Origin: Anaerolineae bacterium
Lineage (GTDB): Bacteria; Chloroflexota; Anaerolineae; Aggregatilineales; Aggregatilineaceae
Direction of reading: 5' to 3'
Length of the DNA: 64,000 nucleotides
NCBI GenBank assembly: GCA_018432315.1
Contig: JAHDLB010000020.1
Coordinates: forward strand, 1 to 64,000
Below the pieces are notes generated by a model, which was given only the letters and a program-made list of their open reading frames with translations, did not search any database and was not told where the DNA came from. The position numbers and the translations under genes were made by a program. This document shows, in pieces, positions 5,450 to 24,175 of the stretch. Position 1 is the stretch's first letter, and the number at the start of each line of letters is the position of its first letter.

Positions 5450-6799
5450 TCAGTAAATTCCCAGGTAGCGGTCAAGCTCCCACGGGCTGACGATGAGCAG
5501 ATAGTCGTTCCACTCCAGCCGCTTGGCTTCGAGGAACCGCTCGAAGAGGTGCAGCCCCAGGGCCTCGCGGGCCAGCTCGCTGGCTTCGAACTCGTCCAGG
5601 GCCTCGTGGAGTGAAACGGGCAGCGTCGTCAGATGGCGGCGCCGGTTCGACACTTCGTACAGTTCCTCTTCGGCGGCGGGCTGCAGCGCCAGCCCGTCTT
5701 TGATCCCGCGCAGCCCGGCGTGCAGCAGCACCGTGAAGGCCAGGTAGGGATTGCAGCTTGGGTCCGTGCAGCGCATTTCCAGGCCGATGCCCGGCTGGTT
5801 TTGCGAGGCGAGGCGCGGCACGCGCAGCAGCGCGCCCCGGTTGAGCTGGGCCCAGGTGACGTAGATCGGCGCCTCCAGCCCGGCCATCAGGCGCTTGTAG
5901 CTGTTGACCAGCGGCGCCAGCACGGCGCAAATGGCGCGCGCGTGGGTGAGCTGCCCGGCGAGAAACGCCTTAGCCTCGCCCGACATGCCGTAATCGTCGG
6001 TGGGGTTGGCGAAGCGGTTGGCGTCGGTTTCGACATCGCGCAGCCACTGGTGAACGTGCATCCCGCTGCCCGGCGCGTCGGTGATCGGCTTGGGCATGAA
6101 CGTGGCGAAGCGCCCCTCCTGGCGGGCGATGGTGCGCACCGCCATGCGCGCGGTCACGATGGCGTCGGCCATGCGCAGCGCGTCGGTCGGCTTGAGGTCG
6201 ATCTCGTGCTGCCCGCCGCCGACTTCGTGATGGCTCGTCTCCACGACGATCCCCATCGCGCGCAGCGCGTCGTTCACCCGCTTGCGAATCGTGCGGGCGA
6301 TGCCCCCCGACGCGTCGAAATAGCCAACCTGGTCGTCAAGCTGGAACGGGGCGGAGCCGCTGGGTTCGTGGAACAGGTAGAACTCGATCTCCGGCGCGAC
6401 CACGTACCGCATCCCCATCGACTCGGCCAACTCCATCGCCTGGCGCAGCGCGCCGCGCGGGTCCCCGGCGAAGGGCTGGCCGTTGGGCGTGTACACGTCG
6501 CAGAACAGGCGCGCTGTCCGGCCCACTTCGCGGTTGGGCGTTTCCCAGGGGATGACGGCGAAGGTGGCGGGGTCGGGCTTGAGATACATGTCGGATTCGG
6601 CCACGCGCGCGAAGCCTTCGACCGCCGAGCCATCGAACCAGACGCCATGCTCGAAGGCTGCGGGCAGGTGATCGGCATCGATGGTCACCGTCTTGACCAT
6701 GCCCGCCACGTCGGTGAATTGGAGGTCCACCGAGCGGACGTCGTGCTCGCGCACGAGTTTGATCACGGCATCAGGGCTTACAGGTTGAACGTCAGGCAT
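5450..6799 (-). CDS. glnA: Glutamine synthetase, type I
   Basis: A 449-residue enzyme that makes glutamine from glutamate, ammonia and ATP in the cytoplasm. It has the beta-grasp N-terminal domain (VDLQFTDVAGMVKTVTI), the VWFDGSAVEGF segment, metal and glutamate ligands in APEIEFYLF and HHEVGGGQHEID, and the ATP-binding stretch FMPKPITDAPGSGMHVH. The length matches the GSI-alpha group rather than the longer adenylylated GSI-beta group. It is the first gene of a minus-strand unit with pucR and an oxidoreductase. Some glnA-like proteins act on amines or gamma-glutamyl compounds instead; the pucR link leaves that open. Confidence 0.9.
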   Translation of the reverse strand: MPDVQPVSPDAVIKLVREHDVRSVDLQFTDVAGMVKTVTIDADHLPAAFEHGVWFDGSAVEGFARVAESDMYLKPDPATFAVIPWETPNREVGRTARLFCDVYTPNGQPFAGDPRGALRQAMELAESMGMRYVVAPEIEFYLFHEPSGSAPFQLDDQVGYFDASGGIARTIRKRVNDALRAMGIVVETSHHEVGGGQHEIDLKPTDALRMADAIVTARMAVRTIARQEGRFATFMPKPITDAPGSGMHVHQWLRDVETDANRFANPTDDYGMSGEAKAFLAGQLTHARAICAVLAPLVNSYKRLMAGLEAPIYVTWAQLNRGALLRVPRLASQNQPGIGLEMRCTDPSCNPYLAFTVLLHAGLRGIKDGLALQPAAEEELYEVSNRRRHLTTLPVSLHEALDEFEASELAREALGLHLFERFLEAKRLEWNDYLLIVSPWELDRYLGIY

Positions 6800-7018: not shown

Positions 7019-7076
7019 GACTGCTGACTGACTCCTGTGGAGACAGATTTTGGATTAATGCTTGAGGGGGCTTTAT

Positions 7077-8144
7077 ATGGGTGCTGTTCGCCATCGCAGT
7101 ACAGGTCTATCCCTCGCTGTGTTCCTGTGTTTGATCCTGCCGCTGGCGGCGGGCGCGGCTGCACACGCCCAGGATGCGCCGCCGCGCGTGCTGATGCTCC
7201 ACAGTTATCACGCCGAATACCGGTGGGAGCAGGAACTGATCCTGGGCGTTACCGCCGGGCTGGCCGAGGCCGGTTACGCGGTCGACGACGGCGCCGTGAC
7301 ACTCGACCACTTCTGGATGGATACGAAACGCCATAACACCCCGGATTATCTGGCGACTATCGTGGGCGAGGCGCGCGACTACATCCTCGAAACCCGGCCC
7401 GACGTCGTCATCGCCACGGACAACAACGCGATCGAGAGGGTCGTCGCCACCTGGCCCGATGAGTCGGTGCCGTTCGTGTATGCCGGGCTGAACAACGCTC
7501 CGGACGAGATCGACGGCCTGACCGGGCGACCGAACATCACCGGGGTGTTGGAGCGCATCCACGTGGCCGAATCCATGGAATGGGTCGCCACGGTGTTCCC
7601 GGATGCCCGGCTGGTGGCGGTGCTGTCCGACAGCTCACACACAGCCATCGTGTCGGCTGGCGACATGCGCACCGCGCTCCACGGATCCGACCGGTTCCTG
7701 GGCGCGCACATGTTCTCGACCAATTCCTATGTCGAGTGGAAGAGCCTGGTGTCTTCGATATCGGCGGTCTATGACGTGCTGATCGTCGGGCTGTACCAGA
7801 CGCTGCACGACGAACGCGGCGTCGTCATGGAAGGCGCCGACGTGATGGCCTGGACCGTCGAAAATTCCGCCGTCCCGGTCGTGTCGTTGTGGGATATGGG
7901 GGCGATCGAGGGCGGCCTGGGCGGCTCGGTGATCTCGGGCGAGGCGCAGGGTTACGAGGCCGGGCTGATGGCGGCGCGCATCCTGCAGGGCGAGTCGCCG
8001 CAGGATATCGCCGTCACGATGCCGCGGCGCGGCAAGCTGGTGCTCAATTCGGCGGCGGTGCAGCGCTGGAACGTGCAGATTCCCCTCGATCTTATCGAAG
8101 TGTCCACCATTTACGGCCCGGACGGTCTTGCAGTGAGCAGGTAA
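7077..8144 (+). CDS. Periplasmic-type solute-binding protein (ABC_sub_bind-like)
   Basis: A 355-residue exported protein. The signal peptide is clear (basic start, hydrophobic core LSLAVFLCLILPLAAGAA, cleavage near AHAQ). The mature part begins PRVLMLHSYHAEYRWEQELI, a pattern found in ABC_sub_bind-type and sensor-associated binding proteins of the periplasmic-binding-protein type I fold. The start at 7077 is chosen because GAGGGGG lies six bases upstream; a TTG at 7062 is less likely. No permease or ATPase gene is nearby. Six bases downstream lies a Cache-HAMP-GAF receptor, so a sensory rather than transport role is inferred. Ligand unknown. Confidence 0.8.
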   Translation: MGAVRHRSTGLSLAVFLCLILPLAAGAAAHAQDAPPRVLMLHSYHAEYRWEQELILGVTAGLAEAGYAVDDGAVTLDHFWMDTKRHNTPDYLATIVGEARDYILETRPDVVIATDNNAIERVVATWPDESVPFVYAGLNNAPDEIDGLTGRPNITGVLERIHVAESMEWVATVFPDARLVAVLSDSSHTAIVSAGDMRTALHGSDRFLGAHMFSTNSYVEWKSLVSSISAVYDVLIVGLYQTLHDERGVVMEGADVMAWTVENSAVPVVSLWDMGAIEGGLGGSVISGEAQGYEAGLMAARILQGESPQDIAVTMPRRGKLVLNSAAVQRWNVQIPLDLIEVSTIYGPDGLAVSR

Positions 8145-8150
8145 GAAACC

Positions 8151-9662
8151 ATGCTACGAAAAACCAGTCTACAGGTACAACTGATCGTCTTCATCGTTTT
8201 GGCCCTGGTCTTGATGGCGGTAGGGCTGATGTCCGTTCAGTTCCGCCAGGAGCGCAACACCCTGGTCGATGCCGAACGCCAGCGCAGCCTGCTGTTGATC
8301 GAGAACGTCCATTCCACCATTCGCGCGGTCAGCCCGTTGATCAACACCTTGCAGGACATCTCCGAGCTTGACGAGCGCCTGGCCGGCATGGTCGAGTCCA
8401 ACGCGGATATCGAGTTCATCACCGTCACCTGGCCCGATGGCGCGGTGATTTTCCATTCGGACCCGGCTTACCAGGGCAAGACGGTGAGCGCGCTCCGCAA
8501 CTTCTCGACCACCGCGACCGAGCAAATGTCGGTTTCGGGCTACGGTTCGGTCTACGTCACCGGCGAAGTGTTCGACAACCCGACGTCCGACGGGCCGGAG
8601 CAGTTCGTGGTCGCCGTCGGCGTCGATGCGGACGCCCTCTCCGGCGCGCTGACCGAGCAGATCGCCACCATCGTGGTGGCGGCGCTGGGCGCGATCGTGG
8701 TCGTCGGCCTGGTGGTGTCCTTCATGCTGCGCAACCGCGTCGTGGCGCCGATCAACGCGTTGGCCCAGGCGGCGACTGAGTTCAGCGCGGGGCACCTGGA
8801 TTACCGGGTCAAGCCGACCGGCAGCCGCGAGCTGATTCGCCTGGCCGAGACGATGAACACCATGGCCGACCAGTTGGGCCAGTCTCGCGCCGAGATCGAG
8901 CGCACCAATCGCACGCTCGAAGACCGCATCCGCGCCCGCACGCGCGACCTCGAGGTGGCCGCCCGCCTGTCGGAACAGGTCGCGACCATTCTCGATCCCG
9001 ACGAGCTGCTGCCGATCGTGGTCGAGATGACCAAAGAAAACTTCAGCTTGTATCACGCGCACATCTACCTGCTGGAAGACAATCACCTGACGCTGGCGGC
9101 GGGTGCCGGTGAGGCCGGGCGCGCGATGAAGGATCGCGGGCACCGCATCCCCCTGGACGCGCAGAGTATTGTGGCCCGCGCCGCGCGCGACAACCGCCCC
9201 TACGTGGTGGACGACGTGACCGAGGTCGAGGACTTTCTGCCTAACCCGCTGCTGCCCGCCACGCGCTCGGAGGCGGCCTTCCCGCTGGCGGTGCAAAACC
9301 GCGTGCTGGGCGTGTTGGACGTGCAGTCGCAGGTGACGGCCCGTTTCGATGCCGACCTGCAGATCGTGTTCTCCACGTTGGGCGGGCAGATCGCGGTGAC
9401 GTTGGACAACGCGCGCCTGTTCAGCGAGGTGGACCGGTCCAGCCGGCACCAGCAGGTCTTGGGCGCTATCACCCAGGAAATCCAGCAGGCGGTGAGCCTG
9501 GAAGACGTGTTGCAGGTTGCAGCGCGCGAGTTGGGGCGTGCCCTGCGCGTGCCGCATACCGCCATCGAGCTTCAGCTTCAGCCTGTTTCCGCCGAGGAAG
9601 GCGAGACAGATCGCGGCGCAGATACCGATCCTGCGCCTGAATTGGAATCGATCCATTCCTGA
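8151..9662 (+). CDS. Membrane receptor with Cache-like sensor, HAMP and GAF domains, no kinase
   Basis: A 503-residue receptor. The N-terminal membrane helix (VQLIVFIVLALVLMAVGLM) is followed by an extracytoplasmic single-Cache-like region, a second helix (IVVAALGAIVVVGLVVSFML, about residues 180-200), a HAMP linker (to about 250), a short coiled coil, and one GAF domain (about 270-425) with the segment FLPNPLLPATRSEAAFPL. The protein stops in what looks like the beginning of a second GAF, without kinase, cyclase or methyl-accepting domain. The same GAF segment recurs in the histidine kinase downstream, so the two receptors are probably paralogous and may work together. Confidence 0.82.
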   Translation: MLRKTSLQVQLIVFIVLALVLMAVGLMSVQFRQERNTLVDAERQRSLLLIENVHSTIRAVSPLINTLQDISELDERLAGMVESNADIEFITVTWPDGAVIFHSDPAYQGKTVSALRNFSTTATEQMSVSGYGSVYVTGEVFDNPTSDGPEQFVVAVGVDADALSGALTEQIATIVVAALGAIVVVGLVVSFMLRNRVVAPINALAQAATEFSAGHLDYRVKPTGSRELIRLAETMNTMADQLGQSRAEIERTNRTLEDRIRARTRDLEVAARLSEQVATILDPDELLPIVVEMTKENFSLYHAHIYLLEDNHLTLAAGAGEAGRAMKDRGHRIPLDAQSIVARAARDNRPYVVDDVTEVEDFLPNPLLPATRSEAAFPLAVQNRVLGVLDVQSQVTARFDADLQIVFSTLGGQIAVTLDNARLFSEVDRSSRHQQVLGAITQEIQQAVSLEDVLQVAARELGRALRVPHTAIELQLQPVSAEEGETDRGADTDPAPELESIHS

Positions 9663-9700
9663 CCGGTCTGAACCACTGACGAGAATTGGAGAAAAGACGC

Positions 9701-10753
9701 GTGTTCAAAAAATCACCCCGTACAATCAGCTTGATCATGGTGTTAGCGCTGTCGCTGGTGCTGCTGGCAGCCTGTGGGTCCGATTCAAACGACGACGACA
9801 AGAAAGACGAATCCCAGTCGCTGACGCCGACCAGCATCCAGCTTTCATGGGTCAATACCATCGAATTCGCCGGCCTGTATGCCGCCGACGCCCAGGGCTT
9901 CTACGCCGACAACGGGCTGGAAGTGGACATCCGCGGCGGCGGGTTTGACGAAAACGGCCAGTACATCGACGCGCTGGGGCTGGTCCTGAGCGGTGACGTC
10001 GATTTTGGTGTGGGCGATGCGGCGTCGCTGCTGCGGGCCCGCGCCGAGGGCAAGCCGCTGGTGGCGATTGGGTCGATCTACCAGCGCAGTCCGGTGTCGA
10101 TCATCGCGCTGGGCAGCAGCGAGATCGCCCGCCTGCAAGACCTGGCCGGCAAGCGCGTGATGATCGAAGAGGGCAGCAACCTCACCATGACGTATGAGGC
10201 CATGCTCGAAGTGCAGGACATCGACCGGTCGCAGATCGTCGAGGTGCCCAACGAGAATTTCGTCGTCGATCCGCTGGTCGATGGCGAGGTCGACGCTTAT
10301 CTGGGCTTTTTGACCAACGAGGCCATGCAGGTCGAGGCGCGCACGGACGACACCGTCGTCAACATCATGGCGAGCGATTACGGCGTCGATATCTACGTCA
10401 ACCTGATCTTCACGTCCGAAGAGACCATCAACGAGCGCCCGGAACTGGTGGAGTCGTTCCTGAAGGCCACCCTGGCCGGGATGGACTGGGCAGTCAACAA
10501 CCCGAGCGACGCGGCCCAGATCGTCCTGGACCGTTTTGGCGACGATCTGCCGGATACGATCCGCGAATTCCAGCCGGAAGCCATGCAGGCGTCGGTGCCG
10601 CTGCTCGAACCGTCGGGCCAGCGCATTGGCGACATGGACCCCGACGTGTGGGCATTCACCCAGGACTTCATGGTCGAGCACGGCGTGCTGTCCGAAGCGG
10701 TCGATCTGGATCAGGTCTATACCCTGTCGTTCCTGGATAAAGTGTACGAATAG
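9701..10753 (+). CDS. NMT1/THI5-like ABC substrate-binding lipoprotein
   Basis: A 350-residue lipoprotein with a lipobox (LLAAC) after a hydrophobic signal. The mature chain fits the SsuA/THI5/NMT1 type II binding-protein family (IQLSWVNTIEFAGLYAADAQGFYADNGL...). The family binds pyrimidine precursors, alkanesulfonates, riboflavin and similar compounds. The GTG start at 9701 follows a GGAG site; a TTG at 9686 is the other choice. No cognate permease or ATPase is present. It lies between two receptors, which suggests it feeds ligand to the kinase encoded just downstream. That role is inferred. Confidence 0.82.
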   Translation: MFKKSPRTISLIMVLALSLVLLAACGSDSNDDDKKDESQSLTPTSIQLSWVNTIEFAGLYAADAQGFYADNGLEVDIRGGGFDENGQYIDALGLVLSGDVDFGVGDAASLLRARAEGKPLVAIGSIYQRSPVSIIALGSSEIARLQDLAGKRVMIEEGSNLTMTYEAMLEVQDIDRSQIVEVPNENFVVDPLVDGEVDAYLGFLTNEAMQVEARTDDTVVNIMASDYGVDIYVNLIFTSEETINERPELVESFLKATLAGMDWAVNNPSDAAQIVLDRFGDDLPDTIREFQPEAMQASVPLLEPSGQRIGDMDPDVWAFTQDFMVEHGVLSEAVDLDQVYTLSFLDKVYE

Positions 10754-10802: not shown

Positions 10803-13800
10803 ATGAGTGTTGAACGACCTTCTCCCAGCCAATCTCTGCCATGGTGGCGCCAACTGCGCTGGACCCTGATCGCCAACTTCGTGGTGCTGGCGGCGATCCC
10901 GGTGATCCTCGTCTCGGTGATCACTCTGGAGCAAACGCGCGCGCAGGCTCAAGATCAGGTCGTGGCTCAGCTCGAGTCCGTGGCCGAGCTCAAGCGCCAG
11001 CAGATCGCGACGTGGCTGGACACCAGTCACGAGGCATTGAGTCTCATCCAGGCCGGCGGCGCTCGCCATCTGCGGTTGGTGATCCTCGCGGCGGCTGACA
11101 TTCACAACGAGACCCAGTATCGCACGGTCAACTCGTTCCTGACCGACGCAGTGGAATCGAACGCCAACTTCAAGAACCTGTTTTATTACAACACCGACGG
11201 TCAGGTGCTGGCCGCTTCTGATCCCGTGCTGGTCGGCCAGGTGGTGGTACGCCAGCCGTTCTTCGGGCCGAGCTTGCAGGGCGAGCGCTACACGCAGGCG
11301 CCCTACTACGAAGTCGGCCAGCAGGAGCTGACGATCGTCATCGCCCAGCCGGTGTACGGCACGGGGAACCGGCTGGTCGGCGTGTTGGCCGCCCGGCTGG
11401 ACGTGAACACCCTGGGCCACATCATGACCGAGCGTACCGGTCTGGGCGACTCGGGCGAAACGTACCTGGTGAGCTCGCAGAGTAACTACCTGCTGACGCC
11501 GAGCCGTTTCGAAGGATACGGCATGAATCAGGCCTATCACAGCGAGGGGATCGATCGCGCCATCCAGGGCGAGGCGGGATCGGGCGTGTATGACGACTAC
11601 CGCACCCCCCCCAAGAAGGTGATCGGCGTGTACCAGTGGATCCCCGAGCTTCAATCGGCCATGATCGCCGAGGAAGACGAGAGCGAGGCGCTGGGTGCGT
11701 TCATCAATGCGCGCAACTTCAGCTTCCTGCTGGCGGTGGCCGCGGCCCTGATCGCGGTGGGGTTCGGCCTGTTCCAGGCCACGCGCATCTCGCGCCCGGT
11801 GGCGGCCCTGACGTCTGCGGCGTCCAGTATTGCCGCCGGCGACCTGTCGCAGCGCGCGACGATCCGCCAGCGAAACGAGCTTGGTGTGCTGGCGACCGTG
11901 TTCAATGCGATGGCCGGACAGCTCCAGGACCTCGTCGGCTCGCTGGAGGCGCGCGTCGCTGCCCGCACCCAGGACCTGTTCACGACGCTTGAGGTCGGCC
12001 AGCTTGCGACGAGCATCTACCAGCAGGACGACCTGCTGCCGCGCGTGGTGGACTACATCCGCGAGCGGTTCGATCTCTACTACACGCAGATCTACCTGGT
12101 GGACGATGCACAGCGATACGCCGTGCTGGTGTCCGGTACGGGCGAGGTCGGCCAACTGCTGCTGGAACGCAAGCACCGCCTGGACCTGTCCGCAACGTCG
12201 ATTGTGGCGCGGACGGTCCGCACCCGAACCCCGGTGCTGGTGGAAGACACCGAGACCAGCGACGTCCACATGCCCAACCCGCTGCTGCCCGACACGCGCT
12301 CGGAGGTGGCGATCCCGCTGATGATTGGTGACCAGGTGCTCGGCGTGTTGGACCTGCAAACGCAGCACGTCGGCCAGTTCACGACCGACAACCTGCCGGT
12401 GTTCCAGGCGATGGCGAACCAGTTGGCGGCGGCTCTGCGCGGTGCCCAGTCCTACGCCGAAACGCAGGCCGCTATCGAGCGCGCCGACTCCATCAACCGC
12501 CGCCTGACCCGCGAGCGCTGGGAGAGCTACCTGGGGCGCGTGGGGCGTGGCGAGCGCGTCGGCTATGCGTACGACCTGCAGGACGTTCGCCCGCTGTCCG
12601 GCGATACCGGCCCGCTGGAGACTGTGCCCGGCGCGGACAACGGCGGCGGGCGCCTTCACGCGCAGCCCGTCGTGCTGCGCGGTCAGCCCATCGGCACGAT
12701 CAAGGTTGGCGACGACCGCGACCGCGAGCTGTCCGGCGAGGAGATCATGCTGGTGCAGTCGGTCGCCGATCACGTCGCCCAGGCCATCGAGCAGTACCGC
12801 GCGTTCGACGAAACGGAACAGCGCGCCGGTGAGCTCCAGACGGTGGCCGAAGTGTCGGCGGAAGCGTCGACATCGCTGGACCTGGAACGGCTGCTCTGGA
12901 ATGTGTCGAACCTGACGAAAGAACGGTTTGGCCTCTATCACGCGCACATCTACCTGCTGGACGACACGGGCGAGTACCTCGTGCTGGCAGCGGGCGCGGG
13001 TGAGGTCGGCCAGCTCATGCTCGCCCGGCAGCACCGCATCGCGGCCAGCAACCCCGCCAGTCTGGTGGCGCGCGCGCACCGCACGCGCCAGGGTGTCGTC
13101 ATCAACGACGTGACCCAGGCGCCCGACTTCCTGCCCAACCCGCTGCTGCCAGAGACGCGCTCGGAGATGGCCGTTCCCCTGATCGTCGGTGAAACGCCGA
13201 TCGGGGTCCTGGACGTGCAGTCGAGCTTCGCCGGACGGTTCACCGGCGAGGACGTCCAGGTGATGACCACGCTGGCGGCACAGGTCGCCATCGCCGTCCA
13301 CAACGCGCGGCTCTTCGCCGAACAGGTGCACGTGGCCGAGCAGTTGCGCGAGGTCGACCGGCTCAAGAGTGAATTCCTGGCGTCGATGAGCCACGAGCTG
13401 CGAACCCCGCTCAACTCGATCATCGGGTACGCCGAGGTGCTGTTGGATGGCATCGACGGCGAGCTGACCGAAGACATGAACGAGGACGTCACCGCCATCC
13501 ACGGCAGCGGCAAGCACCTGCTGAACCTGATCAACGACATCCTCGACCTGGCGAAGATCGAAGCCGGGCAGATGGACCTCGTGACCGAGGACGTCGATCT
13601 GAGGGAATTCCTGCAAGAGATGATGAACACGTCTCGCGTCTTGATGGGCGACAAATCGGTAGACCTGGTGGTCGACGTGCCGGAGTCGCTGCCGAAGGTT
13701 CACGTCGACTCGCTGCGCCTGCGCCAGATCGTCAACAACCTGCTGACCAACGCGATCAAGTTCACCGAAGAAGGCAGCATCACCGTCCACGCCGAGCAGG

Positions 13801-14054
13801 ACGAGGATCCGGCGATGATCCGGGTCTCGGTGATCGATACCGGCGTGGGCATCACACCCGACAACCTGCCGCTGGTCTTCGAGCGGTTCCGCCAGGTGGA
13901 CCAGTCGCACACGCGGCGGGTCGGCGGCACCGGCCTGGGCCTGTCGATTACCCGCCAGTTGATCCAGATGCACGGCGGCGACATCACGGTCGAGAGCGAG
14001 TACGGCCACGGCTCGACCTTCACGTTCACGATCCCGGCCAGCCCTGCGTCCTAG
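10803..14054 (+). CDS. Multidomain sensor histidine kinase: dCache, HAMP, GAF repeats, HisKA, HATPase
   Basis: A 1083-residue membrane kinase. Helix 1 (LIANFVVLAAIPVILVSVI) is followed by a large double-Cache-like sensor region (about residues 45-290), helix 2 (about 300-320), HAMP, then two clear GAF domains (about 395-555 and 690-840) with a shorter GAF-like block between them. HisKA carries the acceptor His864 in SHELRTPLN, and HATPase_c has NNLLTNAIKF, DTGVGI and GTGLGLSI. There is no C-terminal receiver, so phosphate probably passes to separate receivers; the two downstream genes carry three. It is co-directional with the receptor and binding proteins upstream. Confidence 0.93.
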   Translation: MSVERPSPSQSLPWWRQLRWTLIANFVVLAAIPVILVSVITLEQTRAQAQDQVVAQLESVAELKRQQIATWLDTSHEALSLIQAGGARHLRLVILAAADIHNETQYRTVNSFLTDAVESNANFKNLFYYNTDGQVLAASDPVLVGQVVVRQPFFGPSLQGERYTQAPYYEVGQQELTIVIAQPVYGTGNRLVGVLAARLDVNTLGHIMTERTGLGDSGETYLVSSQSNYLLTPSRFEGYGMNQAYHSEGIDRAIQGEAGSGVYDDYRTPPKKVIGVYQWIPELQSAMIAEEDESEALGAFINARNFSFLLAVAAALIAVGFGLFQATRISRPVAALTSAASSIAAGDLSQRATIRQRNELGVLATVFNAMAGQLQDLVGSLEARVAARTQDLFTTLEVGQLATSIYQQDDLLPRVVDYIRERFDLYYTQIYLVDDAQRYAVLVSGTGEVGQLLLERKHRLDLSATSIVARTVRTRTPVLVEDTETSDVHMPNPLLPDTRSEVAIPLMIGDQVLGVLDLQTQHVGQFTTDNLPVFQAMANQLAAALRGAQSYAETQAAIERADSINRRLTRERWESYLGRVGRGERVGYAYDLQDVRPLSGDTGPLETVPGADNGGGRLHAQPVVLRGQPIGTIKVGDDRDRELSGEEIMLVQSVADHVAQAIEQYRAFDETEQRAGELQTVAEVSAEASTSLDLERLLWNVSNLTKERFGLYHAHIYLLDDTGEYLVLAAGAGEVGQLMLARQHRIAASNPASLVARAHRTRQGVVINDVTQAPDFLPNPLLPETRSEMAVPLIVGETPIGVLDVQSSFAGRFTGEDVQVMTTLAAQVAIAVHNARLFAEQVHVAEQLREVDRLKSEFLASMSHELRTPLNSIIGYAEVLLDGIDGELTEDMNEDVTAIHGSGKHLLNLINDILDLAKIEAGQMDLVTEDVDLREFLQEMMNTSRVLMGDKSVDLVVDVPESLPKVHVDSLRLRQIVNNLLTNAIKFTEEGSITVHAEQDEDPAMIRVSVIDTGVGITPDNLPLVFERFRQVDQSHTRRVGGTGLGLSITRQLIQMHGGDITVESEYGHGSTFTFTIPASPAS

Positions 14055-14185: not shown

Positions 14186-16321
14186 ATGCCCTCGCTGATG
14201 AAATCGGTTGTTTGTCTCGATTGCGGCCACGAAATGCCGGTTGAGCCGCTGCCTGCCCAATGCGCCGCCTGCGGGTCGAAATGGATGGACGTCCGCTACG
14301 ATTACGACGCGGCGGCGGGGGCATGGCGGGCGGGCCTCGCCGACCGGACCTCGACGCTCTGGCGCTACGAGGAACTGCTGCCGCTGGCGGATATGACGGC
14401 GGTCGTGTCGATGGGCGAAGGCTGGACCCCGCTCACCCAGGCAACCAACCTGGGCCGCGAGCTGGAGCACCAGCACATTTTCATCAAGGACGAGCGCCAG
14501 TCGCCCACCGGCAGTTTCAAGGATCGCCAGGGGACGGTGACCGTGTCCAACCTGCGGCAGCGCGGCATCACCGAATGCGTGATGGCCTCCACCGGCAACA
14601 AAGCGGCGGCCTACGCGGCCTTCTGCGCGCGGGCCGGCATCCGGCTGTGGATCTTCCTGACCAGCACGGTGCCCGCCGAAAAGCTGCGCGAGCTGGCGCT
14701 GTACGGCGCCGAAGTGGTCAAGATCACGGGCACGTACGACCAGGCGAAGGCGGTCGCCATCGACTTTGCAGCGCGGCGCAACCTGTATTACGACTCGGGC
14801 GCCGATTCGATCCCCGGGCGCGAGGCGTTCAAAACCGTCGCCTTCGAGATCGCCGAACAGCTCGCCCGCCTGGAGCCGCTGGGCGATGGCCGCTGGCGCG
14901 CGCCGGACTGGTACGTGCAGGCGGTCAGTGGCGGCATCGGGCCGTTGGGCGTGTGGAAGGGCTTTCAAGAGCTCAAGCAGATGGGCCTGATCGACAAACT
15001 GCCCCGGCTGGCGCTGATCCAGACGGAGGGCTGCTCGCCGATGGCGACGGCCTGGCAGGCCGGGCAGGAGAAGGCCGAGCCGGTGGTGCCCCACACGCGC
15101 ATCACCGTGCTGGCGACCGGCGATCCGGGGCGGGCATACACGATGCTGCGCGGCGCGTGCCAGGAGACGAACGGCACCATGATCGCCGTGTCCGATGGCG
15201 AGGCGTTCCGGGCGATGCGCCGCATGGCGCGCGTCGAGGGCTACAGCATGGAACCGGCGGCGTCGGTGGCCTTCGCCGGGCTGGAGAAGCTGATCGCCGA
15301 CGGGGTGATCGGCGCTGACGAGACGGTCGTCGTCAACTGCTCCGGCCACACCTTCCCCGCCGAGAAGCACATTCTGGAAGATCAGTACGTTCTCGATCTG
15401 CAATTCGGCGCCGAGGCGACCGCCGGGCATACCCAGCTCGAAGAGGGGTTGGGCGCGGCCCTGGAACGGCTCGACGAGCAGGTGACGACCGTCGTGGTGA
15501 TCGACGACAACCCACAAGACAGCCGCCTGATCCGCCGCCTGTTGCAGGCGCACAAGAACTATCGCGTGTTCGAGGTCAACAACCCGCTCGACGGCCTGGA
15601 CCTGGTTCGCCAGCGCAATCCCGACCTGGTGGTGATGGACCTGACCATGCCGGACCTGGACGGGTTCGCCCTGCTGGAGTCGTTCAAGGCCGATAGCGAA
15701 GTGGCGCACATTCCCGTCGTGGTGGTGTCGGCCAAGACGCTCACGCCCGCCGACCGCGCCCGCCTGGAAGGCCGCGCCGAGTCCCTGTGGCAGAAGGGCG
15801 CCTTCAACACGCGCGAGCTGGTCGAGCACGTCGTCAAGACGCTGGGCGGCGACCTGACCGACACGCCGGACGACCTGGCCGAAGCCTCCGCCGGGCAGGT
15901 GGCGGCAGCGTCGAAGGCCGCGCTCGATCCCGACACGCCCGAACCGCTGCGCGACATCGTCGTGATCGACGACGACCGGCGCGACGCCCGCCTGATCCGG
16001 CGCCTGCTGGAGGCCACCGGGCGCTATCGCGTCCACGAAGCGTACGACGGCGCGTCGGGCTGGCAGACGATCGAATCGGAGAATCCGGCGCTGGTGGTGC
16101 TGGACCTGATGCTGCCCGATACGACGGGCGAGGCGCTGCTCGAACGCCTGAAAGCGAACGAGTCCACGCGCGACATTCCGGTCGTGGTGCTGACGGCGAA
16201 GGACGTGCCCGCCGCGCAGCGCGGGCGGTTGCTGGAAAAAATCATCTCGCTGTTCCAAAAGGCCAATCTCGATCGCCAGGCATTGGTCGATTCGGTGAAC
16301 GAAACGTTGAGCAGCGGCTAA
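14186..16321 (+). CDS. Threonine-synthase-like PLP enzyme fused to two receiver domains
   Basis: A 711-residue fusion. Residues 1-35 hold a zinc-ribbon-like CxxC...CxxC pair. About 60-410 is a fold-type II PLP enzyme like threonine synthase: MGEGWTPL, PLP Lys112 in GSFKDRQ, ASTGNKAAAYA and the phosphate loop SGGIGPLG near 248. Two CheY-like receivers follow, with phospho-acceptors D485 (VVMDLTMPDLDG) and D640 (VVLDLMLPDTTG), and a linker rich in Ala, Asp and Pro. It follows the histidine kinase by 131 bases and precedes a single receiver gene. The fusion is continuous in frame with no sign of a missed stop. The reaction catalysed is not certain: threonine synthase itself, or another O-phosphohomoserine or cysteate type enzyme. 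Confidence 0.9.
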   Translation: MPSLMKSVVCLDCGHEMPVEPLPAQCAACGSKWMDVRYDYDAAAGAWRAGLADRTSTLWRYEELLPLADMTAVVSMGEGWTPLTQATNLGRELEHQHIFIKDERQSPTGSFKDRQGTVTVSNLRQRGITECVMASTGNKAAAYAAFCARAGIRLWIFLTSTVPAEKLRELALYGAEVVKITGTYDQAKAVAIDFAARRNLYYDSGADSIPGREAFKTVAFEIAEQLARLEPLGDGRWRAPDWYVQAVSGGIGPLGVWKGFQELKQMGLIDKLPRLALIQTEGCSPMATAWQAGQEKAEPVVPHTRITVLATGDPGRAYTMLRGACQETNGTMIAVSDGEAFRAMRRMARVEGYSMEPAASVAFAGLEKLIADGVIGADETVVVNCSGHTFPAEKHILEDQYVLDLQFGAEATAGHTQLEEGLGAALERLDEQVTTVVVIDDNPQDSRLIRRLLQAHKNYRVFEVNNPLDGLDLVRQRNPDLVVMDLTMPDLDGFALLESFKADSEVAHIPVVVVSAKTLTPADRARLEGRAESLWQKGAFNTRELVEHVVKTLGGDLTDTPDDLAEASAGQVAAASKAALDPDTPEPLRDIVVIDDDRRDARLIRRLLEATGRYRVHEAYDGASGWQTIESENPALVVLDLMLPDTTGEALLERLKANESTRDIPVVVLTAKDVPAAQRGRLLEKIISLFQKANLDRQALVDSVNETLSSG

Positions 16322-16332
16322 AGGCCTGTGTT

Positions 16333-16379
16333 CCGGGCGAGGCGGGCGGCGGGCCGGCGGCTCGTCTCCCCTCGCCCGG
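16333..16379. repeat. Ten-base inverted repeat between PLP-receiver and receiver genes
   Basis: CCGGGCGAGG at 16333-16342 is matched by CCTCGCCCGG at 16370-16379, with a GC-rich 27-base loop. There is no T-run, so it is an mRNA hairpin candidate in a presumed operon rather than a classical terminator. Confidence 0.5.
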
Positions 16380-16426
16380 GCGTGCCCGGCCCAGACAGGT
16401 TAATTTGCGCTCTGTGGGAGATGTTC

Positions 16427-16795
16427 ATGTCATCCAAACGCATTCTGTACGTTGAAGACAACTTCCAAAACAAGCGGCTCGTGCGTAAGATCCTGGCGGC
16501 GCGCGGGTTCGAGGTCCTCGAGGCTGAAGACGGGCTGACCGGCGTGGAAGTGGCGACGAACGAATTGCCCGACCTGATCCTGATGGACATCAGCCTGCCG
16601 GGCATCGACGGCGTCGAGGCGACTCAACGCATCAAAGCCCATCCCGGCACCATGGCGATTCCCGTGATCGCCCTGACCGCCAACGCCATGCGCGGCGACC
16701 GCGAGCGGTTCATCGCGGCGGGCTGCGACGAATACCTGCCCAAGCCGATCAGCACGATGGACCTGATCTCGATGATCAACCGCTTCCTGGCCTGA
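16427..16795 (+). CDS. Single-domain response regulator (CheY-like)
   Basis: A 122-residue stand-alone receiver: acidic pair E10-D11, phospho-acceptor D54 (LILMDISLPGIDG), conserved Thr in VIALTANAM, and Lys in YLPKPIS. It resembles the DivK/CheY-like receivers that act as phosphate shuttles. The ATG at 16427 is favoured because GGGAG sits six bases upstream; an ATG two codons earlier overlaps the spacer. It lies at the end of the sensory cluster, so it is a likely phosphate partner of the 1083-residue kinase, perhaps competing with the two receivers on the PLP fusion protein. Confidence 0.9.
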   Translation: MSSKRILYVEDNFQNKRLVRKILAARGFEVLEAEDGLTGVEVATNELPDLILMDISLPGIDGVEATQRIKAHPGTMAIPVIALTANAMRGDRERFIAAGCDEYLPKPISTMDLISMINRFLA

Positions 16796-16995: not shown

Positions 16996-18525
16996 ATGAA
17001 AACCGTATTCCGGTGGCTGGTCGTCGCGGTTGTGTGTGCGGGTGTTATCGGCGGGTGGTGGCTGGCACAGCCTCCCATGAGCCAGGCCCAAGGGGGGGCT
17101 GCCTGGACGGTGAGCGTGTTCAGCAATCCGGACCTGGCCGGTTCGCCTTTGCCCTTTGCTGCCGTGACGAACAGCGTCAATTTTAGCTGGGGGACGGGCG
17201 TTCCGGTGATCAACGGTGTGCCGGTGCCGGGCGCGCCCAACGATAATTTCTCGGTGCGATTTGTCACCACCACCTTTTTCACGGCGGGCAACTATCGCTT
17301 CACCGTCCAGGTGGATGACGGTGCGCGGCTGTACGTGGACGGGGTGCTGCTGATCAACGCGTGGCAGGCCGGGCTGGGGCTGCGAACGCTCCAGGCGGAT
17401 TACAACTTCACCGTCGATGGCAACCACACGATCACGGTGGAGATGTTCGACACGATCGACAACGCGACCATCATCGCGAGCTGGGCGCTGTCGGCTGGCG
17501 GGCTGCCGGGCACGCCCGGCGTAGCGGGCCAGGCGTGGTCCGGCGAATTCTTCAACGGGGTCGATCTGGCCGGCCCGCCGATCTACACCACGACTTACCC
17601 GGCGAGCGGCTTGAACCTGAACTGGGGCCAGGGCAGCCCCGGTGGGGCGGTCCCGGCGGACAACTTCTCGGCGCGTTTCATGCGCACGATCAACGTGCCG
17701 TCCGAGCTGGCCGAGGGCGTGTACACGTTTTACGCGCGGGCGGATGACGGCTTCCGCTTCTACGTCGACAACACGCTGATCTTCGACCAGTGGGATGCGT
17801 TCGTCAACCAGACGTTTACCGCGCCGGTCACGCTGTTGAACGGCCCGCACGTGCTCAAATTCGAATACCGCGAGTTCACGATGGATGCCCTGGTCTTCCT
17901 GACGTGGTCGCCGCCCAGCGCGCAGAACCCGGTGATCAACCCGGACGCGTCTGGCGCGCCGGTGCAGGCCACAGCGACTCCCGCCCCCGGCCAGCCGGAC
18001 GGGCAGGGTGGCGAGGCGGCGCCGCCGCCCCCGGCGGTGGGCGTGCGCGGCATGGTGATGGGCAATCTGCGCGTGCGCAGCGGCCCCAGCCTCAGGGATC
18101 CCAAGATCGGCCTGATGCCGTGGGGCACCGAGGTCGACATCCTGGGGCGCGATTCGGGCCACGCGTGGTATCAGGTCAACTTCAACGGGCTGGTCGGCTG
18201 GGCGTACGCGCCGTGGATCAGGCTGATCACCGGGTCGTTCGATGCCCTGCCGTATACAGACGGCACGCGCCCGGTCTTCGCGCCGCCGCCGACGCAGGGC
18301 GTCATCGCGCAGGCGTTCGGCAATATGCGCATTCGCAGCGGCCCCGGCTTCCAGTACCCGAAGATCAGCAAGGCCCAGTGGGGCACGCGCGTCCAGGTGC
18401 TGGCCCGCAGCACGAACGGCCTGTGGATCAAGGTCCAGCATGGCGACGTGGTGGGCTGGACGTACCTGAACTGGTACCGCATCGTGCAGGGCGATCTGGG
18501 AGCGGTGCCGGTCACCGATCAATAA
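16996..18525 (+). CDS. Secreted protein with two PA14-like and two SH3b domains
   Basis: A 509-residue exported protein. After a signal peptide (LVVAVVCAGVIGGWWLA, cleavage near SQA) come two PA14-like beta domains (about residues 35-165 and 175-310), each with the carbohydrate-binding pattern DDGxRxYVD (VDDGARLYVDG, ADDGFRFYVDN). A Pro/Ala/Gly-rich linker follows, then two bacterial SH3 domains (about 350-405 and 435-495; NLRVRSGPS, NMRIRSGPG). PA14 domains bind glycans and SH3b domains bind cell-wall peptides, so a surface-glycan adhesion role is plausible. No catalytic domain is seen. A terminator follows. Confidence 0.85.
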   Translation: MKTVFRWLVVAVVCAGVIGGWWLAQPPMSQAQGGAAWTVSVFSNPDLAGSPLPFAAVTNSVNFSWGTGVPVINGVPVPGAPNDNFSVRFVTTTFFTAGNYRFTVQVDDGARLYVDGVLLINAWQAGLGLRTLQADYNFTVDGNHTITVEMFDTIDNATIIASWALSAGGLPGTPGVAGQAWSGEFFNGVDLAGPPIYTTTYPASGLNLNWGQGSPGGAVPADNFSARFMRTINVPSELAEGVYTFYARADDGFRFYVDNTLIFDQWDAFVNQTFTAPVTLLNGPHVLKFEYREFTMDALVFLTWSPPSAQNPVINPDASGAPVQATATPAPGQPDGQGGEAAPPPPAVGVRGMVMGNLRVRSGPSLRDPKIGLMPWGTEVDILGRDSGHAWYQVNFNGLVGWAYAPWIRLITGSFDALPYTDGTRPVFAPPPTQGVIAQAFGNMRIRSGPGFQYPKISKAQWGTRVQVLARSTNGLWIKVQHGDVVGWTYLNWYRIVQGDLGAVPVTDQ

Positions 18526-18555: not shown

Positions 18556-18593
18556 GCGCTCCGCTGGGGTCACACTTGACGGGGCGCTTTTTT
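18556..18593 (+). terminator. Rho-independent terminator after the PA14/SH3b gene
   Basis: GCGCTCCG at 18556-18563 pairs with CGGGGCGC at 18580-18587 (one G-T pair), followed directly by six T. It lies 31 bases after the stop codon. Confidence 0.75.
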
Positions 18594-18684
18594 GTGTGAA
18601 ACTAGGACTCAGGTGGGATCGTCCCTGGACGCGTGGGGCGGTATACTCGGTGCTAAGGTCCACGGTGTGTGGGAACGCGGCGGC

Positions 18685-21324
18685 ATGGCATCAACCGAAG
18701 ATATTCACAACACCCAGAAGCTCGCCAACGCGGCAGAAGCGTTTGTCCGCGCGCTGGATGCGCTGTTCGAAGGCGACACGTTCGACCAGTTCTTTCACGG
18801 CGAAACGCTGCGCCGCGCCTACTGGGTGGCGCTGCAAAAGGCGCTCGAACAGGTCGATATGACCGGCGGCGGCGCGCTGGCGCGCGGCCTGCAGGACGGC
18901 CAGGTCCTGGCCGAGCCGCGCATCGTCGACGAGCTGCTCAGGCTGTTCGTGCCCGACCAGACGCCGGACTACGAGAGCGCCGCGCGCGTCTGGGCGGAGG
19001 CGGTCGGCGCGCCGCCAGGGGCGCGCGATGGTCTGCCCGGTGAGTTGGAGGCGTTCTTCGCGCTGCTGGCCGGTGAACTGCGCCGGTCCGGCGAGCTGCG
19101 CATCGCGCTGCGCCAGCTCGAGCGCAGCGGCGGCGTCCGCCCCCGGCACGCGCCCGGCGAAGACCTGGAGCGCCTGCTCGACGCGGCTGTCGTCGGCGGT
19201 CAGGCGATGGTCGCCCGGCAGGTCCGGCATCTGCTGGCGCTGGCCTCCGAGCGCGATCCCGCGCCGCCCGCCGCCAGCCCGGTCGCGGTCGACGCCCAGA
19301 CGCGGTTGGTGGCGTACCTGGAGCCGGACGCGCTGCGCGCCCTGTGGGAACGCGTGGCCGCGCTCGACGATCCGGCGCTGCGCCTGCGCCTGATGGGCCG
19401 GATCGCGCCGCACCTCTACCGCCACCACCTGATCCCGGACGCGCTGGCGCCCGTCCAGTCGATCCTCGCGTCCGCCGAGCCGCCGCTCGACCCGGCGCTG
19501 CGCGTGGACGTGTTGTGCCGGCTGGCGCCGCACCTGGCCGCGTTCAACCGCGACGCGACGCTGCCCTCGTTCCAGCAGCGCGTGCTGGATGGCGTGCTCG
19601 CCATCGACGACCCGGCCTCGCGCGTGCGGGCGCTGGGCGCGCTGATCGCGAGGCTGCCCCCGGCCATGCAGTCCGAGGCGGTGGCGATGGCCTTCGAGAC
19701 GGCGGCGTGCTGCATTCCGAATGAGGTCGCGCGGGCGACGGCGCTCAGCGTGCTGCCCTCGCACCTGCCGCTGGAATTCCAGACCCGCCTGCTGAGCATC
19801 GCCCGCGACATGGCGGAACCGGACGCGCGCGCCCTGCTGCTGGGGCGGATGCTGGCGTACCTGCCCGCGTCGATGCAGCTCCGCACGCTGATCGAGGCCC
19901 TGGACGCGATCCAGCAGATCACCGGCGACGACGCCCGCGCGCGGGCGCTGATCGCGCTGGCGCCCTATATCGACGCGGTGGGCCCGCTCCAGAACCTGCC
20001 GGAGGGGATGCAGCAGGCGATCGCGGTCACGTTCTCGATCGCCCGCCAGGACGACCGGGCGCGCGCCTTTGCGGCGCTGGCGCCGTACCTGTCGCCCGAA
20101 CTGCTGACCGAGGCGCTCCAAGCGCTCAAGGGCATCACCGACGACGTCCACCGCGCGCTGACGCTGGCGAAGCTGGCGCCGCACCTGCCGGACGATCTCA
20201 GCGTGGCGGCGTTTGGCATCGCCCAGGAATTGAGCACGCCGGAGGCGCGCGCGGCGGCGCTATCGGCCATCGCGCCCTACCTGGGAACCCAGGCCCGCGC
20301 CCAGGCGCTGGCCGATGCGCTGGCGGCGGCGCTGGCCGTCGAGCGGCGTTACGAGCGCGTGGTGGCGCTGGTGGACCTCGCGCCGCACCTGCCGCCCGAC
20401 CTCCGGACGCGCGCGCTCAGCGAGGCGCTGACCGCCACCCGCTCGATCCCCGACGAGAGCGAGCGCGGGCGGGCGCTGGTATTCCTGGCGCCGCACCTGC
20501 TGCCGGAGCACCTCGCCGATGCCCTGGCCGACGCGTACACCATCCTCGATCCGCTGGAGCGCGTGCCGGTGTTGAGCGCGCTGCTGCCGTTTCTGCCGGA
20601 CGAGCCGCACGAGCGCGTGGCGCAGGACGTGATCGACACGGCCAACCAGGCCCCGCGTCCCGAGCACAAAGCCAGCATGCTGGCGGCCATCGCCCCGGTG
20701 ATGCCGGACAAGCTGGTCGGCGTGGCGGCCCAGGCGGCGGTGCAGATCCACAGCCCCTACGACCAGATGCACGTTCTCACCGCGCTGCTGCCCCGCCAGC
20801 CGGAACACCTGCGCGACGCGGCGCTGGCCGCGGCCCACGCCGTGCCCGACCCGTACCAGCGGGTGAGCGCCCTGCTGGAGCTGGTCGCGCATACGCCGCC
20901 GGAGCTGCATTACGCGATCCTGGAGGAAGCGCTCGAGACGGCGCTGAAGGTGAGCGACGATTACGACCGGGCGAGCGCCCTGGCGCACCTGGCGCCGTAT
21001 GTCGGGTCGCAGAGCGAGCTGGTGGACCAGCAGCAGGTGCTGCTCGACCTGGCGCTGTCGGCGTGCCTGGACGTGGCCGATCCGGCGGCGCGCCGCCCCT
21101 TGCTGGCGCAGTGGGCCGCCACCTGCGAGGCGTACCTGGCGCCGGCGCAAACCTACATGCTGTGGCGGCGGCTCGTGGAGTTCCTGCGCGAGCGCCCGTA
21201 CGCCGAGGTCATCGCCGACCTGGCCGCGCTGGCGCCGGTGATCGCGCACCTGGGCGCGGTCGGCGCGGTGGACCTGATCGCGGCGCGCCTGCTGGGCCGG
21301 GACGCGGATCAGACCAGCCGGTAG
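18685..21324 (+). CDS. Large alpha-helical (HEAT-like) repeat protein
   Basis: An 879-residue, probably cytoplasmic protein of unknown function. After about 200 residues without recognised domains, roughly 15 degenerate repeats of about 37-40 residues run to the C-terminus. Each has a core like RxxALxxLAPHLPxxLxxxAL (for example KLAPHLPDDL, DLAPHLPPDL, FLAPHLLPEHL). This is the look of HEAT or related helical solenoids, which act as binding scaffolds. No enzyme domain, signal peptide or membrane helix is seen. The ATG at 18685 is preferred over upstream starts, which would overlap the preceding terminator. It overlaps the 3' end of the convergent acetyltransferase gene by 16 bases. Confidence 0.75.
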   Translation: MASTEDIHNTQKLANAAEAFVRALDALFEGDTFDQFFHGETLRRAYWVALQKALEQVDMTGGGALARGLQDGQVLAEPRIVDELLRLFVPDQTPDYESAARVWAEAVGAPPGARDGLPGELEAFFALLAGELRRSGELRIALRQLERSGGVRPRHAPGEDLERLLDAAVVGGQAMVARQVRHLLALASERDPAPPAASPVAVDAQTRLVAYLEPDALRALWERVAALDDPALRLRLMGRIAPHLYRHHLIPDALAPVQSILASAEPPLDPALRVDVLCRLAPHLAAFNRDATLPSFQQRVLDGVLAIDDPASRVRALGALIARLPPAMQSEAVAMAFETAACCIPNEVARATALSVLPSHLPLEFQTRLLSIARDMAEPDARALLLGRMLAYLPASMQLRTLIEALDAIQQITGDDARARALIALAPYIDAVGPLQNLPEGMQQAIAVTFSIARQDDRARAFAALAPYLSPELLTEALQALKGITDDVHRALTLAKLAPHLPDDLSVAAFGIAQELSTPEARAAALSAIAPYLGTQARAQALADALAAALAVERRYERVVALVDLAPHLPPDLRTRALSEALTATRSIPDESERGRALVFLAPHLLPEHLADALADAYTILDPLERVPVLSALLPFLPDEPHERVAQDVIDTANQAPRPEHKASMLAAIAPVMPDKLVGVAAQAAVQIHSPYDQMHVLTALLPRQPEHLRDAALAAAHAVPDPYQRVSALLELVAHTPPELHYAILEEALETALKVSDDYDRASALAHLAPYVGSQSELVDQQQVLLDLALSACLDVADPAARRPLLAQWAATCEAYLAPAQTYMLWRRLVEFLRERPYAEVIADLAALAPVIAHLGAVGAVDLIAARLLGRDADQTSR

Positions 21325-21884
21325 ATCCAGAAGATCGCCACCTCGCCGCGCGCCATGTCGTCGTTGCTGTAATACGCCTCGCGGATTCCCTCGATCTGGC
21401 AGCCCATCCGCGCGTAAAATTTGCAGGCGGGCACGTTGTTCGTCTGGGTTTCGAGCACCACCGCGCGGAAGCCTTGGCGCCGCGCCCAGGTGACCGTCCG
21501 GCGGAACAACTCGCGGCCCAGGCCCTGCCCGCGAACCGACGTGTCGAGCATCAGGTTCCAGATCCAGGCCGTGTTGTTCCACTCCTCCGGCGCGACGTCC
21601 AGCATGCCGGCCAGCGTCCCCTCGGCCTCGACGACGAGGTGCAGCCCGTCACCCTTGCGCAGCCGCGCCAGGATGTGGCGGCGCTCGGCCTGGTCGAAGT
21701 CGTAACCGTCGCCCTTGTCGTACGGCTCCGGCAGCGGGCGCTCCGCCAGCCGCCAGCCCACCGCCAGCCCGTCGCCGTCTTTCTCGACGACCAGCGTGGT
21801 CGGGCTGACGAAGCCGGGGCGAATCGCGGCCAGCCGGGGGATGTCCTGCTCGGTCATGGGGCGAATGCGGATGTCTGGCACCAT
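21309..21884 (-). CDS. GNAT-family N-acetyltransferase
   Basis: A 191-residue acetyltransferase. The acetyl-CoA binding motif A is visible as LMLDTSVRGQGLGRELFRRTV (Q/RxxGxG/A), followed by the helix ARRQGFRAVVLETQTNNVPACKFYARMGC, typical of GNAT motif B. The N-terminal half (IRPMTEQDIPRLAAI) fits the family. The substrate cannot be told from sequence; RimI-like protein or small-molecule acetylation are both possible. The gene is convergent with the repeat-protein gene. Confidence 0.88.
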   Translation of the reverse strand: MVPDIRIRPMTEQDIPRLAAIRPGFVSPTTLVVEKDGDGLAVGWRLAERPLPEPYDKGDGYDFDQAERRHILARLRKGDGLHLVVEAEGTLAGMLDVAPEEWNNTAWIWNLMLDTSVRGQGLGRELFRRTVTWARRQGFRAVVLETQTNNVPACKFYARMGCQIEGIREAYYSNDDMARGEVAIFWIYRLV

Positions 21885-23083: not shown

Positions 23084-24175
23084 ATGTCCAACCCTGCGCT
23101 CGACCAGATTCTACTCGGCGACTGCCTGGCTATTCTGCCCACGCTGCCCCGTGCCAGCGTGGATGTGGTGTTTGCCGATCCGCCGTACAACTTGCAGCTC
23201 AGCCAGGAGCTTTGGCGCCCCAACCTGACGCTGGTCGATGCCGTGGACGAGGACTGGGACCAGTTCGAGAACTTCACCGCGTACGACGCGTTCACGCGGG
23301 CGTGGTTGGGCGCGGTCCGCGAGGTGATGAAGCCCACCGCGACGATCTGGGTGTCCGGCACGTATCACAACATCTTCCGCGTGGGCGCGATCATGCAGGA
23401 CCTCGGCTTCTGGCTGCTGAACACCGTGACGTGGTTCAAGCCCAATGCCATGCCCAATTTTCGGGGCACCCGGCTCAAGAACGATGTCGAGTTCATCATC
23501 TGGGCCAAGCGCGACGAGGACGGGCGCTATACCTTCGACCATCACCACATGAAGCAGTTCAACGATGGCAAACAGTTGGGCAGCGTGTGGAAAATCCAGG
23601 TGTGCAACGGGCCGGAGCGCCTGCGCGACGAGAACGGCGGCAAGCTGCACCCCACGCAAAAGCCCGAAGAACTGCTCCAGCGCGTGATCCTGGCGAGCAC
23701 CCGCCCCGGCGACGTGATCCTCGACCCATTCGTCGGATCGGGCACGACGGCGGCGGTGGCCCGCCGGCTGCACCGCCACTGGATCGGCATCGAGCAAAAC
23801 GAGGTGTACGTGCGGGCCGCGCGCGAGCGCGTGGCGGGCGTCCAGCCGCTGAAGCCGGCCCACCCGCTGATCGCCGCCGGGGGCCGCAAACCGCCGCGCG
23901 TGCCGTTCCGCTCGCTGATCGAGCGCGGCTATCTGAAGCCGGGCCAGGTGCTCTACCTGGGCGAGTCCGACCGGTCGGCGGTCATTCTCGACAACGGGCG
24001 GCTGCACGCCGATGGCGTGACCGGCTCGATCCACACGCTGGCCTGCCGGTTGAAAAACGTCCCGTCGTGCAACGGCTGGATGCTGTGGCACTACGTCGAC
24101 GAGCGCACCGGCGAGCGCCGCGCCATCGATCACCTGCGCGGTCTGGTGCGCCAGGCCGGCGCCAGCGAGGACTGA
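23084..24175 (+). CDS. CcrM/HinfI-like DNA adenine-N6 methyltransferase, probable GANTC specificity
   Basis: A 363-residue beta-class DNA methylase. Catalytic motif IV DPPYN is at residues 32-36, and the AdoMet-binding FVGSGTT is at about 216-222 near the middle, the motif order of CcrM and HinfI methylase. Long stretches around GTYHNIFRVGAIMQDLGFW, FRGTRLKNDVEFIIWA and KLHPTQKPEELLQR match what is known of CcrM. The C-terminal part (about 275-363) fits the small RAMA-like domain of CcrM. No restriction gene lies beside it, so it is an orphan methylase that could act in cell-cycle or gene control. GANTC specificity is inferred from family resemblance. Confidence 0.88.
   Translation: MSNPALDQILLGDCLAILPTLPRASVDVVFADPPYNLQLSQELWRPNLTLVDAVDEDWDQFENFTAYDAFTRAWLGAVREVMKPTATIWVSGTYHNIFRVGAIMQDLGFWLLNTVTWFKPNAMPNFRGTRLKNDVEFIIWAKRDEDGRYTFDHHHMKQFNDGKQLGSVWKIQVCNGPERLRDENGGKLHPTQKPEELLQRVILASTRPGDVILDPFVGSGTTAAVARRLHRHWIGIEQNEVYVRAARERVAGVQPLKPAHPLIAAGGRKPPRVPFRSLIERGYLKPGQVLYLGESDRSAVILDNGRLHADGVTGSIHTLACRLKNVPSCNGWMLWHYVDERTGERRAIDHLRGLVRQAGASED

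Follow-up and report, generated by a model that had tools for sequence, protein, structure and literature searches.

Can a histidine kinase act directly on an amino-acid PLP enzyme, through receiver domains that the enzyme itself carries? The question is raised by a gene on the forward strand of the window, by which we mean the whole 64,000-nucleotide stretch of DNA analyzed here, in which a sequence-only reading had described one continuous 711-codon frame. ORF reading confirmed that frame at positions 14186-16321 (+), running from the ATG at 14186 to the stop at 16321 through 711 codons without an internal stop. The encoded 711-aa protein has the order Zn-ribbon, fold-type II PLP domain (PALP), receiver (REC), receiver, as follows.

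14186..14287 (+): N-terminal Zn-ribbon-like segment, residues 1-34 (C10, C13, C26, C29); invariant Cys
14405..15346 (+): fold-type II PLP (PALP) domain, residues 74-387, with K112 and the loop SGGIGP at 248-253; Pfam, Foldseek, invariant residues
15347..15490 (+): linker, residues 388-435, mostly disordered in the model (pLDDT below 50 at 391-423 and 425-432)
15491..15829 (+): receiver 1, residues 436-548, with acceptor D485, acidic D440/D441, S515 and K537; Pfam, conservation
15872..15928 (+): inter-receiver linker, residues 563-581; pLDDT below 50
15950..16318 (+): receiver 2, residues 589-711, with acceptor D640 and K692; Pfam, conservation; missing from clade B (see below)

Pfam places PALP at residues 74-387 (6.6e-69) and recognizes two Response_reg stretches (7.4e-36). 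The PALP match (PF00291) reaches 232.9 bits against a cut-off of 35 with the catalytic Lys present, K112 lying in GSFKDRQ and SGGIGPLG at 248-255, which bears out the earlier description of a complete-looking fold-type II PLP enzyme. A receiver (PF00072) is expected to have an acidic pair, an acceptor Asp, a Thr/Ser and a Lys, and these are present; the acceptors D485 and D640 had been placed correctly, and both receivers are intact. The protein thus has the makeup of an enzymatic response regulator, in which a receiver is joined to a catalytic domain whose active-site residues are intact.

Multisequence alignment of 100 relatives, counting at each site only the sequences that cover it, revealed that the four Zn-ribbon cysteines (C10, C13, C26, C29) are invariant (98/98), as are the catalytic K112 (98/98), the STGN segment wherever covered, and S248-G249-G250-x-G252 (100/100). 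Ser/Thr386 is kept in all relatives covering the site. In the first receiver D441, D485 and K537 are each found in 100/100 sequences, position 515 is always Ser or Thr and Asp/Glu440 is kept, and where the second receiver is present D640 and K692 are retained in 67/67 and 66/66 sequences, respectively. Because mean column identity across the aligned relatives is only 51%, the predicted functional sites are evidently under selection, with both cofactor chemistry and phosphorylation chemistry kept. The fused clade also has invariants of its own, namely R104, Q115, W155, R168, K188, W242, Q245, S248, G249, P253, T311 and T389.

Recurrence was assessed in 151 genomes of the same order, a 400-genome spread of Chloroflexota and 84,980 species genomes. 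Within the order, full-length relatives are common at 45-80% identity; 107 of the 151 genomes match at E<=1e-60, and nearly all matches listed extend into a receiver. Matches running through PALP into a receiver at E<=1e-150 occur in 42 of the 400 Chloroflexota genomes, spanning at least two classes, with 7 of the 42 outside the class of the window. The best 80 loci from the scan of 84,980 species genomes are titled as Chloroflexota groups or as an unnamed bacterium, except for one Pleurocapsa-labelled MAG. That record, L135, filed as Pleurocapsa minor (a cyanobacterium), carries the Chloroflexota cassette, appears to be one and the same contig as G009:C19, which is placed in the order of the window, and looks mislabelled. 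A search for plasmid, phage and viral carriage gave no full-length match.

An assembly join or a frame accident, either of which would have produced the fusion artificially, is a negligible explanation: we found no evidence in its support, and about 100 contigs from unrelated assemblies carry the full-length fusion. Nor are enzyme and receivers always separate genes, another circumstance in which the sequence-only reading expected its proposal to fail, since in every complete relative read the PLP domain is followed by one receiver or more, and no separated enzyme/receiver version was found among the close relatives read. The PLP-REC-REC order recurs as had been suggested, but the second receiver is not essential, many relatives having only one. 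Two forms can be distinguished: clade A, the window type, is PALP-REC-REC of about 700 aa, with one member (L051) carrying a single receiver, and clade B is PALP-REC of about 555 aa. A 1695-aa frame in L108 was considered as a longer fusion and rejected; no domain is recognized ahead of its PLP part, and the extra length probably reflects an extension of the open frame. Utilizing 64 PLP domains (43 fused and 21 standalone), a phylogenetic tree separated the fused domains from the standalone ones with 100% SH-aLRT support, along a stem whose length is 1.69 changes per column; support for clade A as one clade is 99%, while clade B is not resolved as one. Since all fused PLP domains group together with full support, the simplest reading of the tree is that the fusion arose once and then persisted.

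The genes on either side connect the fusion to a signaling system. Around the fusion, the window holds the following genes.

7062..8144 (+): ABC_sub_bind-type substrate-binding protein, possible sensor input; Pfam PF04392, 3.7e-17
8151..9662 (+): HAMP-GAF protein without a kinase domain; Pfam HAMP, GAF_2
9686..10753 (+): NMT1/THI5-like substrate-binding protein; Pfam PF09084, 5.2e-50
10803..14054 (+): histidine kinase, dCache-HAMP-GAFx3-HisKA-HATPase, 1083 aa, probable phosphodonor; Pfam, neighbourhood
16427..16795 (+): solo receiver gene, DivK-like; Pfam 1e-25 on 16328-16795

Pfam thus upholds both the 1083-residue kinase reported immediately before the fusion and the single receiver gene after it. 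The solo receiver probably starts at the ATG at 16427 (122 aa) and not at the GTG at 16328, because its homologues are mostly 121-129 aa long. Among the best 80 loci of the 84,980-genome scan, 56 of 74 have a same-strand kinase domain related to that of the window as the immediate upstream neighbor of the fusion, and in 68 of 78 the next gene downstream encodes a receiver, so that the proposed recurrence beside histidine kinases, once checked, proved real. The whole genome (5.7 Mb) has 71 HisKA matches, from which about one kinase neighbor would be expected by chance. Median gaps of 51 bp on the kinase side and 12 bp on the receiver side, with many overlaps, point to an operon. Lineages in which no kinase directly precedes the fusion include L076-L078, L082-L084, L087 and L088. 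Clade B often has a hybrid kinase upstream, as long as 3015 aa, and a REC-kinase gene downstream; giant hybrid histidine kinases of about 2200-3000 aa stand upstream of clade B fusions in L052 (9467-16036, with seven GAF stretches), L053 (1-8010) and L129. Judged by this gene order, with a kinase upstream and a receiver downstream, often only a few bases apart, the fusion is the predicted output protein of a dedicated two-component cassette.

Upstream of the kinase, the two substrate-binding proteins belong to different families, are separated by the HAMP-GAF protein and are possibly sensor inputs. The ABC_sub_bind-type gene is also found upstream in L072, with similar sequences in L073 and L093; the NMT1/THI5-like gene occupies the same place in L071, L075, L098, L103 and L123, and a relative of the HAMP-GAF protein stands upstream of the cassette in many relatives. 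Farther upstream, on the opposite strand, lie a glutamine synthetase (5450-6799) and a PucR-type regulator (3717-5372), and an antisense-frame match suggests a glutamine synthetase/PucR neighbor in some relatives too. Downstream, a secreted-looking protein with two PA14 and two SH3 domains (16996-18525) has relatives directly behind the cassette in several families, and a 910-aa repeat-like protein lacking a Pfam match (18592-21324) is found beside the cassette in the same family (L038, L039; 54-55% identity). An N6_N4 DNA methylase with a RAMA domain (23084-24175, +) adjoins a weakly AAA_16-like gene (24186-25427, -).

What the enzyme might do is less easily read. By both sequence and fold the closest solved structures are threonine synthases, at 23-31% identity, the best Foldseek hits are likewise threonine synthases, and so are the best NCBIfam models for the PLP domain, which would suit a protein that is simply the threonine synthase of the cell with receivers attached. 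The PLP domain scores below both threonine synthase cut-offs, however (161.7 vs 167.1 for TIGR00260 and 273.1 vs 303 for PRK08197). Moreover, the motif NSxNPxRxEGQKT, which we take to help bind the substrate phosphate in the Thermus enzyme, is present in solved bacterial threonine synthases and absent from all fused members, where its place is taken by a segment that contains Gly and mostly ends in (K/R)E(S/A)(M/F)KT. The genome of the window also encodes a separate ThrC (L003), which reaches 260.6 bits against the TIGR00260 cut-off of 167.1 and has the motif with one change (EGQKS), and besides it a PRK08197-type paralogue. That the fusion serves as the housekeeping enzyme is therefore very improbable, and threonine synthase, as a function, does not survive from the sequence-only reading. 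The threonine synthases 2zsj, 2d1f, 1uim, 6cgq and 1e5x share with the fusion the fold, a catalytic Lys in an SFKD segment and an STGN-type loop, but the fusion is without their substrate motif, falls below the cut-offs and carries receivers. With the PRK08197-type "threonine synthase", standalone members of which adjoin the fusion in some loci (L138, L139, L142), it has in common the N-terminal Zn ribbon and overall PALP domain; the PRK08197 type carries EPYRxEGKK and TGGGTG, whereas the fused clade has SGGxGP and mostly (K/R)ESMKT and forms a separate clade on a long stem. We conclude from these sequence comparisons that the fused PLP domain can be regarded as a distinct fold-type II subfamily.

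Additional enzymes accompany the cassette in some lineages. In 25 of 80 loci the fusion is followed by a GNAT protein of ~295 aa, encoded on the same strand every time; in another class (L162, L163) this protein is found again, there ahead of the kinase. Strong GNAT matches (at least 200 bits) occur in 15 of the 400 genomes, all within the 42 fusion genomes, as a raw count that ignores kinship. In GNAT-like examples (L111:11529-12413, L048:10179-11063, L162:15776-16687) Pfam recognizes one GNAT domain only, the C-terminal half having no match. As a general partner the GNAT was rejected: none lies near the fusion of the window, and the nearest homologue in its genome, at 30% identity, is on another contig. 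A GNAT gene at 21309-21884 of the window is not counted as a homologue of the cassette GNAT. In five clade B loci, from some Anaerolineae (L138:11039-12256, L139:10932-12188, L142:11030-12199, L132:4443-5312 and L145), the receiver gene is followed by a standalone PALP gene, which in L139 comes immediately after the fusion instead; the L138 copy, at 567 bits, exceeds the PRK08197 threonine synthase cut-off (303). We regard these genes as a pathway hint.

We favor, as probable, the reading that the fusion is an enzymatic response regulator, in which the output of a threonine-synthase-fold amino-acid PLP enzyme is set by phosphorylation of its receivers via the adjoining kinase. The kinase, through its dCache and GAF inputs and possibly both substrate-binding proteins, would sense a small molecule and, as the intact chemistry and the operon suggest, would phosphorylate D485 and/or D640, while the solo receiver would compete for phosphate or pass it on. 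Dimerization or release of the receivers, transmitted via the flexible linker, could then alter the activity of the PLP dimer. The product might be some amino acid or keto-acid, though not housekeeping threonine, and in some lineages it is perhaps acetylated by the adjoining GNAT. That phosphorylation gates enzyme activity we infer from architecture, operon and residue conservation.

The AlphaFold model of the window protein is good within domains (mean pLDDT 87; pTM 0.63), with linkers 391-432 and 563-581 below pLDDT 50, and the clade B model (pTM 0.72) has the same floppy linker; neither contains a confident docking of receiver to enzyme. Contacts with other proteins may be all that the receivers provide, with catalysis unaffected, and the lack of a confident docking would suit a PLP domain that is active and ungated, its receivers serving for localization, for scaffolding, or as a phosphate sink or relay between the kinase and the solo receiver. 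A receiver number that varies from one to two and a solo receiver nearly always next door would fit as well. Conversely, the PALP-then-receiver order is fixed across at least two classes, has a single origin and has lost its receiver in no complete relative read, which argues for functional coupling and leaves ungated activity unlikely, if still to be taken seriously. A second proposal reverses the flow of information, the PLP domain being an amino-acid ligand sensor, no longer an enzyme, and the receivers its output through protein contacts. Loss of the threonine synthase substrate-site motif would be expected of such a sensor, but in every relative that covers these sites the STGN and cofactor loops, the catalytic Lys and Ser/Thr386 are retained, and a protein that only senses would have no need to keep the catalytic Lys. 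Receiver-linked ligand-binding domains can be inputs, according to Galperin et al. (PMC5847659), and we consider the sensor role distinctly improbable, more so than ungated activity.

The enzymatic response regulator that we favor would not be without precedent. A receiver-like fold is attached to a PLP enzyme in the Orn/Lys/Arg decarboxylases, as a CheY-like "wing" domain, although these enzymes are of fold type I and have an N-terminal wing, no phospho-acceptor and no kinase operon. In the archaeal census PMC5847659, which cites Galperin 2006 and 2010 for response regulators with enzymatic output, multiple instances of receivers on standard metabolic enzymes are described, the archaeal cases being narrow in phyletic spread. 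Like the fusion, these proteins combine receiver(s) with an enzyme under likely environmental control in a narrow phyletic range, and a BcsA-like glycosyltransferase among them has one or two receivers, as the fusion does. The outputs given in the section of that census consulted (KaiC-like NTPase, glycosyltransferase, thioredoxin reductase, PPDK) include no PLP enzyme, whereas here the output is a fold-type II PLP enzyme, and here the enzyme comes first and the receivers last. Allosteric fold-type II PLP enzymes (CBS, PMC9081730; threonine deaminase) share with the fusion a catalytic core followed by a C-terminal regulatory domain, but are regulated by small ligands where the fusion carries a phosphorylatable receiver; the PLP-enzyme allostery review PMC9081730 makes no mention of response regulators. 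Our literature search, which lay outside the Galperin 2006 and 2010 lists, found no description of a PLP or threonine-synthase enzyme with receivers. The remark that such an arrangement is not established was therefore fair for PLP enzymes, but receiver-bearing metabolic enzymes are, as a class, already recognized (PMC5847659). As far as the literature was searched, the kind is known and the PLP version is a new variant.

More tentatively, and with doubt outweighing belief, we propose that the kinase, the PLP-enzyme-receiver, the solo receiver and sometimes the GNAT together control a dedicated small molecule derived from an amino acid, the kinase switching on either its synthesis or its breakdown; this molecule might be an N-acetylated signal. 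The output would then be a metabolite and not transcription, and the fused PLP clade a new activity. The clade likely has a reaction without assignment, and annotation would tend to call it "threonine synthase". Most two-component systems in bacteria exert their effect through transcription, second messengers or motility. If the favored reading is true, a widespread single-origin family with a PLP amino-acid enzyme as output would link phosphorelay to metabolism directly, as a switch that could be tested with no more than two or three purified proteins, and by which an external signal may control whether a metabolic enzyme is active without acting through genes.
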